Made by a program: the position numbers and the translations under genes. Source: a virus. From it: DNA of 26,553 nucleotides. This document shows, in pieces, positions 7,109 to 21,379 of this stretch; position 1 is the stretch's first letter; each line of letters opens with the position of its first letter. The stretch is from the IMG/VR virus record IMGVR_UViG_3300033145_000525, positions 1 to 26,553 of that record; one strand, given 5' to 3'. The notes under the pieces were generated by a model. It ran no database searches, was not told the DNA's origin, and saw only the letters and a list, made by a program, of their open reading frames with translations.

Positions 7109-7501
7109 CTATACTATTGGGCCGCCGCCTGTCATCATGGGGCTAAATTTCTCGGCCATTTCTGAACACCGTTCTGATTCTTCCGGGGTATACTTTTCTC
7201 CGCAGCCCCATACCCTTCCGCTAAGTTCTATATATTCGTCGAACTCAGCCTGCTTGTGTACTGGTATGTAGTACCAGTGCCCGTCATCGTCCTGGACGTT
7301 GACCCTAACGACGCTATCGACATCCGGTACCTCGTCCATCCATTTCAGAACTTCGTCACCATCCATGCCGTCTGGGTACTCACAGTAGTTGGGGCACTCG
7401 GGTAACATGTTAGCGATATTCTGTTTATCCTTATCCGTGAGTATCACCATTATCGGCTGTGCCTCACTGCTGTAAACTTTGTCGCCTACCTTGATCTTCA
7501 T
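7109..7501 (-). CDS. Unknown phage protein beginning MKIKVGDKVY (130 aa)
   Basis: The start overlaps the HNH gene stop (ATGA), and the end of the HNH gene supplies the ribosome binding site AAGGAG. The N-terminal half (KVGDKVY, PIMVILTDKDKQNIANM) resembles small phage hypotheticals of unknown role. Three cysteines lie near CPNYC and WGCGEKY, and the C-terminus is Gly/Met-rich. No catalytic signature is seen. Because its own ribosome binding site lies inside the mobile HNH gene, its expression may now depend on that gene. Confidence 0.7.
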   Translation of the reverse strand: MKIKVGDKVYSSEAQPIMVILTDKDKQNIANMLPECPNYCEYPDGMDGDEVLKWMDEVPDVDSVVRVNVQDDDGHWYYIPVHKQAEFDEYIELSGRVWGCGEKYTPEESERCSEMAEKFSPMMTGGGPIV

Positions 7502-8196
7502 TCGTTACTCCTTAGTAAATATGGTGCGTATAGCTTTAAGTGCTCTAACGCAAATTTGGTTATATCCCCGATACGCTGACCGGGCGGGTGTGCGTTTTTT
7601 CCGCGTAAACACAGTTCTAAATTGCCAAGTCTGTTATCAGCTTTGTCTCCGTTTTTGTGGTGTACAATTTCACCTGACGTAAGCGGTCGTCCTAGGTGTT
7701 TTGACATTACCAGTTTGTGTTCAGGCAGTACGCCGTTCTTAGCTGCGTTAGGATGCTTCGGCCTGTAGCACATAACATACCCACGGCTATTTTTGTAGGT
7801 CTTGGACTTATGCCAGCATGTGCTGTAATGACCACACCTGAGCTTGTACCCAGATACGGACACCTTTTTTCCACATGTACATTCGCATATCCAGTACCTA
7901 CCAGCGTTTCGTTTATGTGGGACGGGTTTAATTACACGGAGCGATCCTATTTGTTGCCCGGCTAGGTTTATTGCTCTAGTTTCACTAAGGTTTTTACCTT
8001 GCCGTTTGTGCGTTTCGTATGCTAAGCAGCCACAACTCTGTTTCCCGCCTGCCCTTAACTGGCCAGCTGGAACTGTTACGGCCTTACCACAGCTACATCC
8101 ACACATCCACAATCTACCTTGGTTGGACGATCCTACGACTTTAATGGCTACGAGCCGCCCGAACTTCTCATTTGTTATGTCAACACTGTGTCCCAT
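7498..8196 (-). CDS. Free-standing HNH homing endonuclease-like protein
   Basis: Residues 140-205 form a clear HNH_3-type domain: PEHKLVMSKHLGRPL, then EIVHHKNGDKADNR and GNLELC, with H160, H179/H180, D187 and N188 in the expected places. The N-terminal half holds two related zinc-ribbon-like repeats, one with MCGCSCG and SCGCL (residues 31-58) and one with CECTCG and CGHYSTC (residues 104-127), which probably bind DNA. This layout is typical of selfish HNH genes in phage genomes. AGGAG precedes the ATG but lies inside a perfect inverted repeat (8196-8244). The gene sits between unrelated genes like an insertion, although its stop is fused to the next start. Confidence 0.88.
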   Translation of the reverse strand: MGHSVDITNEKFGRLVAIKVVGSSNQGRLWMCGCSCGKAVTVPAGQLRAGGKQSCGCLAYETHKRQGKNLSETRAINLAGQQIGSLRVIKPVPHKRNAGRYWICECTCGKKVSVSGYKLRCGHYSTCWHKSKTYKNSRGYVMCYRPKHPNAAKNGVLPEHKLVMSKHLGRPLTSGEIVHHKNGDKADNRLGNLELCLRGKNAHPPGQRIGDITKFALEHLKLYAPYLLRSNE

Positions 8197-8244
8197 AGTG
8201 ACTCCTAGTTTTATTGTTGTTACTATGTTAACTAGGAGTCACTA
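8196..8244 (-). promoter_or_regulatory. 15-bp perfect hairpin burying the HNH gene ribosome binding site
   Basis: Bases 8196-8210 and 8230-8244 are exact reverse complements (15 of 15), with a 19-base loop. On the minus-strand transcript the downstream arm contains AGGAG and ends on the A of the HNH start codon, so a folded RNA would hide the initiation site. In phage T4, hairpins of this kind block translation of homing endonucleases such as I-TevI from read-through transcripts; by analogy a promoter starting inside the loop or second arm would relieve it. The palindrome might also be a DNA site. Confidence 0.8.
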
Positions 8245-8257
8245 CAGTGTCAATGAC

Positions 8258-9730
8258 TTAATTGTCAAAGAATTCTGGTTCAAATTCCTTGTATAGTTCC
8301 TGATGTTGCACCAGCAACTGCGTGTGTTTATTCACCAGTTCTTCAAACTCATGATCGTAAACTCCGTTATGGCCTACCCCGCAAGAATGCGCCAACTCGT
8401 GAAGCACAAGTGAAGAACACTTAGATACAGGATTCTTCATCATGTCCCGTGTCACCCGCATAATGTTGAACGTAATCCCGGTCCCGTGGCTGTATATAGC
8501 GGCCGTATTCGTGCCCATCCACTGTGCGAAGTTCACGTTAATGTCCTTACCGTAGAACTGATTGCACAACATGTGTACATAGTCAGCCAGAGGTTTACGG
8601 TGTTCTGATACCTTGACTTCCTTGTAGCCGTCAGGCATCAGGTTTCCGCTTGACAGCACTTCCTTGTCTCGGGAGTACGACTCTGTTGTCGTCTTTACAC
8701 CTCCGCCGCGGAACTTGCTGTTGATCGACGACCCGAATGTTCGGGCTGAAACGATAGTGGCACCCTGTCGAGCTGCCTCCTGGTTGGCGTCTGCGTCGAG
8801 GGTCTGTATGACTGCGTTTTCGCCGAACTGCCGCTTAAACAAGCTTGCAGCGGTCTCCGCGTCGACACGTTCGTCTTCCAGGGCCATATGGACATGGGCA
8901 TCGCCCAGATCTCCCGGCTCCAGTAACTCGTCCAGGGCCACTACCATTTCTGCATAAATGTCTTGTAAGAACGACTGTGGTACCAGTGTGCGGTCATGTG
9001 ACAACGGCACCTTCTGCTGCACATTGGCATCGAACCGTCCGTCAATAGCGCACACGGGCAGCCCTAGCTCGTACAGGTACGCTGACTCGTGGCGCTTTGG
9101 ATAGAACCATACGTTGGTCATCCGTTGCGTCTTGGTCATTACCTGGTTACCATGAGCGTCTGTCTTCAGAAACTCCGTGGCCAGTTTAGTTTTGACGCTT
9201 TTCATAGGAGCCGCGTACTTCAGTTCCTCATCGTTAGCTCGAAAGTCAATACCCTTAGGTACATAAATCCTGCGCAGGAACGAGAGCACCTCTTTGCGTT
9301 CAGCTTCCGTCCAACGCGGGAAGTCTATAGACACTACGCTACCCATGTCGCGCTTCTTACGCGTGGCTTTACGCCCGGTCTTGTCGAATACGACTGTACC
9401 TTTTGTGGTCGAGATGATACCGCTCTTGGCTCTAGCCAATACGATCTTCTCACCCAGGTTAAACTTACCTCTTTTGGTAGGATCACCACGCTTATCCGTG
9501 CTCTTGAACAGGGTATAGGCGTCTCTGAGATCCTTGAATCCATCGGGGTTGTCGTCTTCAACCAGCAAAACTGTGCTGCGCGTCGACGGGGAATCCGCTA
9601 ACACCACCTTACACATCTTTGCATCTGTATCGAAACTGTTCTGTACCAACTCCGCCACCATACGTTCGGGCGGGAAGTTAGCGAACATTTCTTTGAATCC
9701 TTCTTTATCTACATCAAACCAATTGCCCAT
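8258..9730 (-). CDS. GHKL ATPase fused to HExxH zinc metalloprotease
   Basis: The N-terminal domain has the Bergerat ATP-binding signs of the GHKL group (Hsp90, gyrase B, MutL, histidine kinases): ELVQNSFD (E27, N31, D34) as N-box, VEDDNPDG (57-64) near the G1 position, and a glycine-rich GKFNLGEKIVLARA (88-101) as lid/G2. The middle part, with VPLSHDRTLVP, may be a transducer-like domain. The C-terminal domain contains LHELAHSCGVGH, an intact HExxHxxGxxH zinc site (H444, E445, H448, H454), followed by DHEFEELV. GGAG lies before the ATG at 9730 and it overlaps the UDG-like gene by 17 bases. No signal peptide, so it should act in the cytoplasm. Substrate unknown. Confidence 0.8.
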   Translation of the reverse strand: MGNWFDVDKEGFKEMFANFPPERMVAELVQNSFDTDAKMCKVVLADSPSTRSTVLLVEDDNPDGFKDLRDAYTLFKSTDKRGDPTKRGKFNLGEKIVLARAKSGIISTTKGTVVFDKTGRKATRKKRDMGSVVSIDFPRWTEAERKEVLSFLRRIYVPKGIDFRANDEELKYAAPMKSVKTKLATEFLKTDAHGNQVMTKTQRMTNVWFYPKRHESAYLYELGLPVCAIDGRFDANVQQKVPLSHDRTLVPQSFLQDIYAEMVVALDELLEPGDLGDAHVHMALEDERVDAETAASLFKRQFGENAVIQTLDADANQEAARQGATIVSARTFGSSINSKFRGGGVKTTTESYSRDKEVLSSGNLMPDGYKEVKVSEHRKPLADYVHMLCNQFYGKDINVNFAQWMGTNTAAIYSHGTGITFNIMRVTRDMMKNPVSKCSSLVLHELAHSCGVGHNGVYDHEFEELVNKHTQLLVQHQELYKEFEPEFFDN

Positions 9731-16527: not shown

Positions 16528-17082
16528 TTACCTACCTGCTGCTGCTTTTATCTGTTGAACCCGATTTAGCTTCGGAGTAGCTAACGCTTTTACACGTAGC
16601 TTGGCTGTAGCTCTTGCCTGCAGTATTGCTGGGTGTTCGCTGTCAAGGCTGAACCCATTCTGTGCGCCACTAACAAAGGACGTCACAAGTAAGCGGGCAA
16701 AATCTTGGTCAGCTTTCCACTCTGGATGCAATGCAAACATCATATCGATGGCACCCAAAAGTGATAAACTGGCTGCCTTCGCTAATGGTCTGTACTGTGC
16801 TTCCATTGTAGTATTGATAGCCAATACAACCTCGGGGTATATTACTTCCGTATACGTCTTTCCCTGTGCTACCCCAGCAGCTTTTTCTTGTATGACAACG
16901 AGGATGCCAGCCACTTTGGCTATATCATCCGTTGACGGATTGTCTGCCGCTATCCAGCCTACGGCTGCAAACAGCCCCGTCTGGTTCGCAATAACTTTTG
17001 CTTGATTGTTGTCGATATTGCATCCCGTGATACTTACGACCATGAGTACTGCTATGACTGATGTTATTAACCAATTTCTCAT
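16528..17082 (-). CDS. Phage-encoded lipoprotein (184 aa)
   Basis: The ATG at 17082 follows AAGGAAAAA; an in-frame ATG at 17127 would place 15 polar residues before the signal and start inside the terminator. The N-terminus MRNWLITSVIAVLMVVSITGC is a classical type II signal: basic n-region, hydrophobic core and lipobox SITGC with cysteine at residue 21. Residue +2 is asparagine, with no Asp retention signal. The mature part is alanine-rich and helical, with no catalytic motif. It would be exported and lipid-anchored. Known phage lipoproteins of similar type block superinfection or spoil receptors, which is a candidate role only. Confidence 0.75.
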   Translation of the reverse strand: MRNWLITSVIAVLMVVSITGCNIDNNQAKVIANQTGLFAAVGWIAADNPSTDDIAKVAGILVVIQEKAAGVAQGKTYTEVIYPEVVLAINTTMEAQYRPLAKAASLSLLGAIDMMFALHPEWKADQDFARLLVTSFVSGAQNGFSLDSEHPAILQARATAKLRVKALATPKLNRVQQIKAAAGR

Positions 17083-17101
17083 ATCTTTTTCCTTCTTTGT
17101 G

Positions 17102-17134
17102 AAAAAACCAGGGGGTGGTGTATCCACCCCCTGG
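17102..17134 (-). terminator. Strong intrinsic terminator after the probable SSB gene
   Basis: On the minus strand an 11-bp perfect stem (17134-17124 with 17118-17108, CCAGGGGGTGG and its complement) closes a five-base loop and is followed at once by six T (17107-17102). It lies ten bases past the stop at 17144 and about 20 before the lipoprotein start. The other strand lacks a T-run, so it acts in the direction of the genes. Confidence 0.92.
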
Positions 17135-17143
17135 ATGTATTAT

Positions 17144-18556
17144 TTACTGGGTTGGCGGTGTTCCGCCCATCGTGCGCAGTTGATCCAGAAACTTGTCCTG
17201 GTCAAATGGCGCTACTGCATCTCCCGGTGCTGCCGGACCCGGCACTACCGGTGGCACTCCATTAGCTGGAGCTGCTGCCACTGGGGCCGCTTCCACTGGG
17301 GCCGCTGCTGCCACTGGGGCCGCTGCCGCTACAGGTGCTGCTGCCGCTACAGGTGCTGCTGCCGCCACTGGGGCCGCTGCCGCTACAGGTGCTGCTGCCG
17401 CTACAGGTGCTGCTGCCGCTACAGGTGCTGCTGCCGCTAGAGGCGCTGCTGCTGCTACAGGAGCTGCCACGGGGGCTGCTGCTGCTGCAACGTTAGCTGC
17501 TACGCCTGCTACTACCTCTGACGCTGCCACGGGCGCTGCTGCCACTGGTGCTGCCGCTGCGGGTGCCGCTGCTACAGGACTTCCACCGAAACCGCCACCA
17601 CCTGTTGCTACCGTCGGCGAGGCCGCGGGTGCTGCAGGGGGATCTGGAATCTGGAACTGCGGGAACGCCATCTTAAGCAAAGCGTGCTCGTGATAGCCCT
17701 GAGGCGATCGCATGCTCAGCAAACCGATTAGCGTATTGATAACATCCTGCTCCTGAGGAATATTCAGGAATGACGCAGGCTCAGTCATGTTGTACCGCTC
17801 TTTCAGGAGGTCCTGTCCTACTGGACGTTTAACTACCTGATTTTGGTTATCCAATGCTAGCGATATCACGTACTTCGAGTACTCGCCCTGGTTGTCCTGC
17901 TTCTGACATATCAGCACTGGACCTTCGGCCGGACTTGTCATATCCCCAACTGCGAATTGCAGCAGATAGTTCTGGCTTACGATCTCTGCCGGCAAGTTAT
18001 TCCGCTGGAATACCAGGCCGTTCTTTGTGCCGATCAGTGAGTTGCATGAGCTTGACGAGAATACGCCAATCTGCACACCCTTCGCTGGCTGGTTTGCATC
18101 CCAGATGTTGGCAATGAAGTGGTTAAGCGGTTTGCTGAACGCAGCACGCTCCCTGCTCTTGCCGTCTCCTGTGTCTTCCATCAGGTAACCCCAATCGCCA
18201 GAATTCTGGCTGATCGTCAGGCAAAGATGCTCCAACGGATCGAATATCTCGTCCCCCGGCTTTGCGAATGTACGCAGTGACAGGATGTCCTGTCGCGTAC
18301 CAAACTTTCCACCGCCGTGTCCGACGAACCGTGAAATGTATAATACCATTCCAAAGTCTGTTAGATGCCCGTCAGGTGACATGAATGTCACGCATGACGT
18401 AGCTGGGTCAGGGTTACTCGGATCGAATGCTGGAAGCATTCTGAACGCGATCGGGTCCTTGCCCGTCATGTTGCGGAAACGCACCCCATCTTTGAAGATG
18501 AGGTTCTTACGTCCCGAACCTGTTTTCATTGTCTGTACTTGATTGTCTAATCCCAT
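17144..18556 (-). CDS. Probable DNA-binding protein (SSB-like) with Ala/Pro repeat tail
   Basis: The 470-residue protein has two parts. Residues 1-305 are folded and beta-rich, with FRMLPAFDPSN (38-48), a glycine-rich VGHGGGKFG (78-86) and aromatic residues spread as in nucleic-acid-binding proteins. Residues 306-450 are Ala/Pro/Val-rich with a repeated AAAAPV hexapeptide, a probable flexible linker, then a short DQDKFLDQLRTMGG tail that might bind partners. Position between polymerase and recombinase, a strong AAGGAG site and a private terminator fit a single-stranded DNA-binding protein needed in bulk. I see no diagnostic OB-fold motif, so this is context-based. No zinc motif is present. 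Confidence 0.5.
   Translation of the reverse strand: MGLDNQVQTMKTGSGRKNLIFKDGVRFRNMTGKDPIAFRMLPAFDPSNPDPATSCVTFMSPDGHLTDFGMVLYISRFVGHGGGKFGTRQDILSLRTFAKPGDEIFDPLEHLCLTISQNSGDWGYLMEDTGDGKSRERAAFSKPLNHFIANIWDANQPAKGVQIGVFSSSSCNSLIGTKNGLVFQRNNLPAEIVSQNYLLQFAVGDMTSPAEGPVLICQKQDNQGEYSKYVISLALDNQNQVVKRPVGQDLLKERYNMTEPASFLNIPQEQDVINTLIGLLSMRSPQGYHEHALLKMAFPQFQIPDPPAAPAASPTVATGGGGFGGSPVAAAPAAAAPVAAAPVAASEVVAGVAANVAAAAAPVAAPVAAAAPLAAAAPVAAAAPVAAAAPVAAAAPVAAAAPVAAAAPVAAAAPVAAAAPVEAAPVAAAPANGVPPVVPGPAAPGDAVAPFDQDKFLDQLRTMGGTPPTQ
17267..17578. repeat. In-frame 18-bp tandem repeats coding AAAAPV
   Basis: The plus-strand unit GCTGCTGCCGCTACAGGT and close variants recur with 18-bp period; the most regular part is 17297-17455, with degenerate flanks on both sides. 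In the coding frame each unit gives six residues (AAAAPV, with rare L or E replacements). Third-position changes between units without amino-acid change suggest selection on the protein as well as slippage or unequal exchange. Confidence 0.9.
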
Positions 18557-18571: not shown

Positions 18572-21379
18572 TTATACTTTCTCACCCCATCGCGTCATAA
18601 CGTCGATGTCAATACCCAAACGAAGTGGGTCCCTGTCAGGAATCGGGATATCAATTTTACCCATAGTTTCCTGGAACATCACTTTTGTTTCCTCTATTTC
18701 GTTTTCGGGCACTTCGACCATCACCGCATCGTGAATCTGATTCACTATACGGAAATGTAGGTTATGCTCTTCCCTGTATCTCTTGATTAGGTACATGGCA
18801 ACCATGCACGTATCAGCTACTGTACTTTGAATCGGGAAGTTCTGCGCCTGGCGTTGCATGCCAGCCACACCTTCTCGACTATTACCAACAGTGAAACGTC
18901 GGCATCTACCCCACGGATTTGTCAACAAACCCGTCTTAGTTACAGCGTCGGCACAACTACACATGTAGCCCCACGCATCTACGAATGTTTGTTCTTTCCA
19001 CACCTCCATCATTGTATCGATCTCGGCCTGTAATATGTCCAACGATTGAGTTGAACCGGTCTCGCCCTTTACCTGTCGCGCAATGTCCATAGACCCACGC
19101 CCGTAGGGGATTCCGAAGTTCAAGTTCTTCGCCGACACACGAATCGTATTCTTAAAATCAGCTCGTGACATTCTTTCCCCTTGCAGGTCCAGGTACATCA
19201 GTTGCTTCTGTAACTTCTCGAACGCAGCCATATCGTCTTTGGCCAACGTCAGTAAGTAATCTTCAGGCATCGGGTTACCGTCAGGCCCCAATACAGATAG
19301 ATGGAATGAACTTATAGCCGTCATGTCATGCATGTCTTTACCCGGCGTGGTAAGTGTACCCCACATAACCTCATCCCCGGACAGTGCCGCAAGTACGAAT
19401 AACTCAGCCTGCACAAAGTCGGCCTCCATCAAGAAGTGCCCTGGTTTCGGTATAACAATCGTACGGATCTGATCCGGACGTTCTTTACCAAAAGTTTCGA
19501 ATATCTTCCAGATATACCCCTCAGCGCGCTTCGGCCAGTTCTGGCAATTTGGTTTGCTGGTTTTGAATCTACCCGTTTCCGCTAACTGCGAAAAGCGTGG
19601 ATGTATTCGTCCGTCAACCCATATCTTTGCTATGATTCCACCACCCGAGGTAGCCTCGTCAAAGTCCGGGGAAGGATCCCTTAGCCACGTCTTCCGTGCC
19701 TGGTCAACCCGCCTGATGTCCGCCATCACCTTCACGAATGGATGTTTTTCCTGTAGGATTTCCAACGTATTCATGTCGGTGCACGGACTATACAGTGCCT
19801 GCGCTTCACGCGGCTGGTTCTGCATATGATCGGTCCACGCCTTACCCTTAGTCGTCTTTATAGGTGTAAGACCCAAGTTATCGAAAAGCAAACTAGCCAC
19901 CTGTGGCTGTGAACGAAAGTTGAAATCAACAACACCCTCGTTATGCGCCATAAGCTTTGCTCGGCTCGCTAACTGGGTCAGGACCTCAGTGTAATCCTTC
20001 GTTAGATGTGCTAACCGTTCCTTGTCGATCAACATACCAGTACGCTCAATCTCATAGAGCGTATGCTGCGTATCCATATCTGTTTCCCACAGACTTGGGT
20101 ACTTACCACGTGGCTCCCTAAACTGCTGTAACTCCGGCGCCTGCTTAATCGCAATACGCCTGGGAGCATCTACGTCCCATGCACTATACGGAAGCAGCAA
20201 GTCCCGGGGGACCGGTCCGTATCCGTGTTTACATATCTTCTTATGCTCCTTGACCCACTCCTTAACCGGCAACTCGTAGTGCCCGATATTCGTGTACTTG
20301 ATCGTTAGATCCTCAAGGGCGAACGGACCTGTCTCGCAGATGTCATGCTCAGCCAGCATGGTGTCATACACCACACGCGACCTTACGTCGATATCGTAGC
20401 TCAGAAGCCACTCACCGTCAGCGATCACGTTCTGTCCGCCTATGTCGACCCGCTCGTCTTCCAGTATTAGCTTTATCTCGGCCCAGGCTGCGTCATGGTC
20501 GTCCATGACATTACCCCTACAGTCGTGCGTCCAACTCTCTCCCTCGGGCACTACGCCTTCGTCAAAGAATTCAATCACGACTGCCTGACCAAGTTCAAAC
20601 CCCAGCTGTACAGTCCTGATATAGCGGTCTGGTGACATCCATGTCGCACCATCCCACTCACAGTCAATCATCAAGAACGGATTGGGGTACGTATCAAACA
20701 GATGTTGCTTGAACGCCCGGATCTGCGCTACACTCTGGAGCACCATGAAATTCATGGTATCCCGCTCAACTTCTCTGCCCAACTGGCGGTCAGTCAACAA
20801 CTTCCAGTCCCTGTCGTAGTCTACCTGGCGTTCTGGGTTGCGCAGTATGAACGCTGGATTGTAGGTAGTGAATACCTCGGTATCCGGTAACGTCGGATGC
20901 TTTACGAACGAACCCCTGTAATCAGACAGGTTATGCCCCCGTCCCATTACCGCGGTCAGCGACTTGGCGCCTAGGCAAACAATTACCTTGGGGGCGCACC
21001 GCTTCATTTCCTCTTCCAGACACGGACGACAGACCTTCAAATCGCTGGCGTTAACGGCCCGCTTTGCCGGCGGACAGAACTTTACAGCGTTGGTCATGTA
21101 TATCGCGTAGTCTTCAGCCCTAGCCGCTACATGCTTGCAGCTGGCCACACCTTCCTTAAGGTACTGGAACCCGGCCTTGTCCATGGTCGGGAACAGGATT
21201 TCCAGCCCGGCCGGCCCAGTAAACAGGTTGCCAGTAGTTACTTCTTCGTTACCGGGCCGCTCCCCTACGATCATGTACTCAGCGGGTAACTGTCCGATGC
21301 CCTTGATCCATTTCAGGTCATCGATTACCTCGGTATGCTCTAGCCACTGCGGGCCGTCTGGTCTTTTCTCTTTCGCCAT
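18572..21379 (-). CDS. Family A DNA polymerase with N-terminal UDG-like domain and 3'-5' exonuclease
   Basis: Three domains are readable in 935 residues. Residues 30-200 resemble family-4 uracil-DNA glycosylase: IVGERPGNEE (37-46), GNLFTGPAG (50-58), YMTNAVKFCPP (94-104) and TTYNPAFILR (171-180), where asparagine 174 replaces the usual histidine of HPA. Residues 230-420 are a DEDDy exonuclease: IDCEWD (D239, E241), NVIADGEWL (D321) and YSAWD (Y398, D402), all present. The PolA domain has motif A ADFVQAEL (D654, E659), motif B with R747, K751, F755, Y759, and motif C QIHDAV (D884) with alanine instead of glutamate after the aspartate. AGGAGG precedes the ATG. This is the replicative polymerase. 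Confidence 0.93.
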   Translation of the reverse strand: MAKEKRPDGPQWLEHTEVIDDLKWIKGIGQLPAEYMIVGERPGNEEVTTGNLFTGPAGLEILFPTMDKAGFQYLKEGVASCKHVAARAEDYAIYMTNAVKFCPPAKRAVNASDLKVCRPCLEEEMKRCAPKVIVCLGAKSLTAVMGRGHNLSDYRGSFVKHPTLPDTEVFTTYNPAFILRNPERQVDYDRDWKLLTDRQLGREVERDTMNFMVLQSVAQIRAFKQHLFDTYPNPFLMIDCEWDGATWMSPDRYIRTVQLGFELGQAVVIEFFDEGVVPEGESWTHDCRGNVMDDHDAAWAEIKLILEDERVDIGGQNVIADGEWLLSYDIDVRSRVVYDTMLAEHDICETGPFALEDLTIKYTNIGHYELPVKEWVKEHKKICKHGYGPVPRDLLLPYSAWDVDAPRRIAIKQAPELQQFREPRGKYPSLWETDMDTQHTLYEIERTGMLIDKERLAHLTKDYTEVLTQLASRAKLMAHNEGVVDFNFRSQPQVASLLFDNLGLTPIKTTKGKAWTDHMQNQPREAQALYSPCTDMNTLEILQEKHPFVKVMADIRRVDQARKTWLRDPSPDFDEATSGGGIIAKIWVDGRIHPRFSQLAETGRFKTSKPNCQNWPKRAEGYIWKIFETFGKERPDQIRTIVIPKPGHFLMEADFVQAELFVLAALSGDEVMWGTLTTPGKDMHDMTAISSFHLSVLGPDGNPMPEDYLLTLAKDDMAAFEKLQKQLMYLDLQGERMSRADFKNTIRVSAKNLNFGIPYGRGSMDIARQVKGETGSTQSLDILQAEIDTMMEVWKEQTFVDAWGYMCSCADAVTKTGLLTNPWGRCRRFTVGNSREGVAGMQRQAQNFPIQSTVADTCMVAMYLIKRYREEHNLHFRIVNQIHDAVMVEVPENEIEETKVMFQETMGKIDIPIPDRDPLRLGIDIDVMTRWGEKV

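Follow-up and report, generated by a model that had tools for sequence, protein, structure and literature searches.

A perfect inverted repeat lies over the translation start of a free-standing HNH endonuclease gene in the 26,553-nucleotide stretch of phage DNA analysed here (the window, taken at its full length), and we consider it likely that this element gives a probably mobile gene its own control of expression, independent of its surroundings, in which a lock acting on read-through RNA is combined with an escape through an internal promoter. Read-through RNA from the upstream genes would carry both arms of the repeat and fold into a hairpin that hides the Shine-Dalgarno sequence and the start codon, so that little nuclease would be made. 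A sigma70-like promoter in the same DNA would start RNA within the loop, and such RNA, without the upstream arm and with its AGGAG free, would be translated. The output of nuclease would thus be tied to the gene's own promoter and insulated from transcription of the surrounding operon, whichever that is. Computation shows the repeat, its fold, the match to a promoter, the change in accessibility of the start and the recurrence of such starts in other HNH genes; use of the promoter, a lowering of translation by the seal and mobility of the gene are what we infer.

The HNH gene (7498..8196, minus strand) encodes 232 amino acids; two Cys-rich repeats are present at the N-terminus, and the HNH motif (VHHKNGDKADNRLGNLE) looks intact. 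Its product matches the HNH_3 domain (PF13392, E = 1.8e-9) and phrog_374 (E = 5.5e-30); comparison with solved structures gave no match. As the genes of the stretch lie on the minus strand and are closely spaced, read-through across the HNH gene is expected. One source would be the upstream gene (8258..9730, minus strand), the stop codon of which lies 13 nt before the core arm of the repeat. The product of this gene begins with a GHKL ATPase domain (HATPase_c_3) and carries towards its C-terminus a HELAH motif like that of a zinc protease; relatives with about 30% identity occur both in contigs of large phages and in MAGs from many phyla. On the other side, the downstream gene (7109..7501, minus strand) has a start that overlaps the HNH stop codon, and its ribosome site is open, at 3.8 kcal/mol. 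No nucleotide similarity of the stretch to the phage records searched was detectable.

Several further features of the window are recorded here in their own right. Gene 17144-18556, which has an extended series of AAPVAAAAPVA repeats close to its C-terminus (window 17200-17500), ends in a textbook intrinsic terminator at 17134-17102, where the minus strand reads CCAGGGGGTGG-ataca-CCACCCCCTGG and then TTTTTT. The mechanically called open reading frame 16528-17127 has its listed GTG start inside this terminator hairpin, and its real start is probably an ATG slightly downstream. Gene 18572-21379 joins, in one reading frame, a family A DNA polymerase and an N-terminal domain of the uracil-DNA glycosylase superfamily (Pfam matches: UDG, 29-191; DNA_pol_A, 454-694).

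A sequence-only reading of this DNA had described a perfect 15-bp inverted repeat covering AGGAG and the A of the start codon, and the description is exact: on the minus strand, the arms 8244-8230 and 8210-8196 are 100% complementary over 15 bp and enclose a loop of 19 nt (8211..8229). The order across the element on this strand is TTGACACTG-TAGTGACTCCTAGTT-AACATAGTAACAACAATAA-AACTAGGAGTCACTA-TGGGACACAGTG. The downstream arm (8196..8210) contains the Shine-Dalgarno sequence AGGAG at 8206-8202, spaced five bases from the ATG at 8196-8194, together with the A of that ATG, while the upstream, anti-Shine-Dalgarno arm (8230..8244) coincides with the spacer of the promoter-like site described below. 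Six inverted repeats with arms at most 60 nt apart were found in the window, and none of the others is as long; the number of perfect repeats of at least 15 bp with a loop of 3-60 nt expected by chance in 26.5 kb is 0.0012. Folding of the minus-strand RNA from 8300 to 8150, which had been put forward as a check, gave -45.6 kcal/mol, with z = -5.5 relative to 200 dinucleotide shuffles. In the minimum-energy fold the helix is extended outward by pairing of 8250-8244 with 8189-8183, the latter segment lying inside the coding sequence, and the AUG lies in a 7-nt bulge between the two helices; including the outer helix, the hairpin has 21 pairs in total. On read-through RNA the Shine-Dalgarno sequence and the start codon are therefore, by computation, paired in a stable hairpin. 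An Rfam search of the window matched no family. The collections searched contained no close relative of this hairpin in which compensatory changes could be counted.

The same DNA contains a sigma70-like site, TTGACA-17-TAACAT (8253-8225, minus strand), which overlies the hairpin and matches the consensus at 10 of 12 positions. Its putative -35 box (8248..8253), found by a promoter scan, is at the base of the upstream arm; the putative -10 box (8225..8230), 17 nt from the -35 box, starts at the last base of that arm and lies mostly in the loop. The loop also holds the transcription start predicted from sequence, A8218, 7 nt after the -10 box. RNA starting at about 8218 would lack the upstream arm and have a leader of about 22 nt. 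The earlier suggestion that the loop may hold a phage promoter gains support: a -10-like hexamer is indeed in the loop, with the -35 box beyond the upstream arm. The site looks like a host promoter of the sigma70 type, not like a T4-like late one. By its promoter sequence the gene is therefore to be described as one that works like I-TevI, not as a T4-type late-controlled gene. A second TTGACA (GTGTTGACATAAC), besides the one at the base of the hairpin, is present at 8183-8178 on the minus strand, just within the HNH coding sequence. The promoter match as such says little, since a scan of 3.3 kb on both strands gave four sigma70-like sites, compared to 3.2 expected from shuffles. TTGACA-17-TAACAT is one of two 10/12 sites within the scanned 3.3 kb and, itself included, one of three minus-strand sites in the whole window with at least its score. 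TAACAT matches the -10 consensus at only 4/6 positions, and usage of sigma70 is assumed.

The cost of opening the start region depends strongly on where the RNA begins. With 5' ends at -50 to -300 (upstream of about 8246) it amounts to 19.7-21.3 kcal/mol, compared to 7.3 kcal/mol with the 5' end in the loop. Both halves of the originally suggested mechanism, namely that read-through mRNA folds over the start and that RNA starting inside the element escapes, thus find support in computation. Among the 34 genes of the window, only one other start is as costly to open, and this is the mis-assigned one inside the terminator.

By the terms of the sequence-only reading, relatives devoid of the HNH gene that keep the whole palindrome would speak against the lock; such relatives were sought, and none was found. 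The closest relative of the upstream gene (L087, 58% identity) is located on a 169-kb phage contig, where the homologue is followed, 15 nt on, by an unrelated gene; both the repeat and an HNH gene are absent there. Of 15 relatives in all, L087 and 14 that are more distant, none has a perfect inverted repeat of at least 10 bp 3' of the upstream-gene homologue. Within the limits of these sequences, the repeat accompanies the HNH gene. L087 does not represent an exact empty site, because the downstream genes differ too, and the relatives of the downstream gene (L080-L085, of which L080-L082 were inspected) have unrelated neighbours and no empty site. The HNH gene of a related phage (L122/L135) has a start without seal.

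Sealed starts recur in other HNH genes. Three scans of viral contigs supplied relatives of the HNH protein, the best start per gene was picked by rule, and start codons in these loci were assigned automatically. As a measure of sealing we used the cost of opening the start region relative to shuffles of the upstream sequence, a start being counted as sealed at z>=2; 450 other open frames of the same loci, chosen by rule and with some false ones among them, served as controls. By this measure 34 of 150 HNH genes, excluding the one described here, have sealed starts, compared to 27 of 450 controls (p = 5e-8), in a sample that contains some mutually related HNH genes (L039, L041, L047). Among loci obtained after the first look, from which L125 (= L053) and L189 (= L007) were left out as duplicates, the count is 16 of 83 HNH genes (p = 2e-4). 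In a separate comparison with GC-matched upstream sequences, 25 of 79 HNH genes were sealed, compared to 4 of 80 controls (p = 9e-6). The arm sequences of these starts are unrelated. The shuffle z-score holds in both sets of loci and was chosen after these loci had been seen, so that the test is not fully blind. A first measure, the difference in opening energy upon cutting the RNA at -25, was significant in the first loci and not in later ones, probably because many hairpins have short loops, and was replaced.

A plain excess of promoter-like sites before HNH genes was not significant after GC matching (20/79 vs 14/80), and promoter excess alone is an effect of base composition. The position of the sites relative to the seal carries more information. 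A promoter-like site accompanies 23 of the sealed HNH genes, and in 16 of them transcription is predicted to start past the midpoint of the upstream arm but ahead of the downstream one, where 4.3 would be expected. The best predicted start lies at -27 to -12 in 17 of 23 sealed HNH genes; for unsealed ones the figure is 9 of 40 (p = 9e-5), and for controls it is 24 of 76 (p = 4e-4). Sealed starts with an escape-placed promoter-like site (score >=8) were observed 17 times, compared to a mean of 0.17 in shuffles, a ratio that reflects the non-randomness of both features and not a coupling between them. Examples in which the arm is made up of the -10 box or of the bases that directly follow are L180 (TATAATGTCATAGAGGAAATGACATTATG), L188, L203, L205, L194, L055 and L190. 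The layout closest to that of the window is seen at L053, where each of two HNH genes is preceded by TTGACA and then by a palindrome over the start, with arm sequences that differ. At this locus (L053:1-2560, contig IMGVR_UViG_3300031669_000085), the two HNH genes flank a stretch seemingly full of tRNA-like sequences. Inspection by eye of five annotated HNH starts from named phages (L215, L217-L220) revealed no long hairpin clearly covering the start. To judge from the survey, the lock design may be common among HNH genes, with about four in five of the sampled genes being without a seal. That one compact cassette of 30-50 bp has evolved time and again in free-standing HNH genes of many phages that are unrelated, in which the -10 box or the spacer doubles as anti-Shine-Dalgarno arm and which is silent on read-through and active from its own promoter wherever inserted, strikes us as an evenly balanced proposition.

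Of the other explanations for the element, the one that fares best, though we regard it as unlikely, accepts that the hairpin seals the ribosome site but has it opened otherwise, by a terminating upstream ribosome, an RNA-binding protein, an antisense RNA or temperature, with the promoter match being due to chance. The upstream stop codon is so close to the core arm (13 nt) that a ribosome terminating there would extend into the outer helix; moreover, the -10 box is imperfect, and promoter-like sites at such a level are about as frequent in shuffles. However, opening of the 15-bp core by itself takes about 20 kcal/mol (RNA with its 5' end at -50), and the promoter-like sites of sealed HNH genes elsewhere are found preferentially at lock-escaping positions. 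Somewhat less probable again is a DNA operator, through which the HNH protein, by virtue of its Cys-rich N-terminal repeats, or another regulator would repress the overlapping promoter. The repeat does overlap the promoter, and there is a precedent in I-TevI, which autorepresses its late promoter via an operator resembling its homing site (PMC2988022). An operator of this kind would, however, not be expected to have a downstream arm that coincides with the Shine-Dalgarno sequence and start codon instead of being centred on the promoter, and it accounts poorly for a fold far more stable than that of shuffles or for the fact that other HNH genes, whose arms are unrelated in sequence, have sealed starts as well. 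Operator and RNA lock could also act together. We give very little credence to a functionless palindrome that arose by chance or by mutation, for example through template switching: the expected number of 0.001, the placement exactly over the ribosome site and the sealed starts of other HNH genes all speak against it, even though only a single sequence with no close relatives is at hand and a one-step fold-back copy could conceivably yield a perfect repeat. Least probable of all is an intrinsic terminator of the upstream gene, for while a stable stem-loop does follow straight after the stop codon, a G+C-rich stem with a T run is not what is seen, there being no T run after the stem on either strand; besides, the next gene starts in the 3' arm, and the terminator scan lists none here, whereas a real-looking terminator is present elsewhere in the window (17134-17102).

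A read-through lock with escape from an internal promoter, the reading we prefer, would meet a particular demand on mobile nuclease genes, which need enough expression to spread without harm to the carrier phage, in an operon that they have not chosen. One solution was suggested by the T4 cases. Its presence in DNA without detectable nucleotide similarity to known phage records, together with the significant excess of sealed starts in metagenomic phage HNH genes, points to a portable, context-proof switch that arose by convergent evolution. For phage transcriptomes this predicts transcript starts within hairpin loops, and the leader feature may help to mark selfish endonuclease genes.

In the transposase genes of IS10, IS50 and IS200, RNA structure at the start site protects against outside transcription. 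There too, a mobile gene is insulated from neighbouring promoters by the folding of read-through RNA, but these are transposons, not phage endonucleases, and the likeness is drawn without sequence comparison. Start sites hidden in long transcripts are likewise found in the T4 genes e, soc and 49, where RNA structure covers the translation start; gene e is silent on early read-through RNA, while its transcripts without the structure are translated (PMC3014915). These genes, however, are not free-standing HNH genes, and the lock of gene e times lysis. Among the endonuclease genes of T4 and its relatives, this logic is described for I-TevI, I-TevII, I-TevIII, segB and Aeh1 mobE: transcripts from upstream promoters conceal the ribosome site, and a gene-proximal promoter yields RNA too short to fold (PMC2988022; PMC3014915). 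The mobE hairpin has been shown to reduce initiation, and that of segB is implicated (PMC2988022, PMC3014915). T4 segB and mobE of Aeromonas phage Aeh1 share with the window's gene that they are free-standing endonucleases (mobE being HNH) whose ribosome site is covered by an RNA hairpin; they belong to T4-like phages, whereas in the window the promoter spacer itself is the arm, in a comparison made by description and not by hairpin sequence. The T4 I-Tev genes are endonuclease genes in which, as predicted here, the Shine-Dalgarno sequence is paired in read-through RNA and RNA from the gene's own promoter cannot form the hairpin, but they reside in group I introns, I-TevI with a T4 late promoter, while the window's gene is free-standing, of the HNH_3/phrog_374 type and preceded by a sigma70-like promoter. 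In the open-access literature searched, we found no description of this hairpin-lock logic outside T4-like phages. The parallel to I-TevI and other homing endonucleases drawn from the sequence at the outset thus matches published cases (PMC2988022, PMC3014915), and the claim of an independent case in a different phage agrees with the lack of detectable nucleotide similarity to the phage records searched and with the type of the gene. Judged from its sequence, the element is by its logic an independent further case of the T4-type lock, from which it differs in promoter type and in the use of the promoter spacer as an arm.
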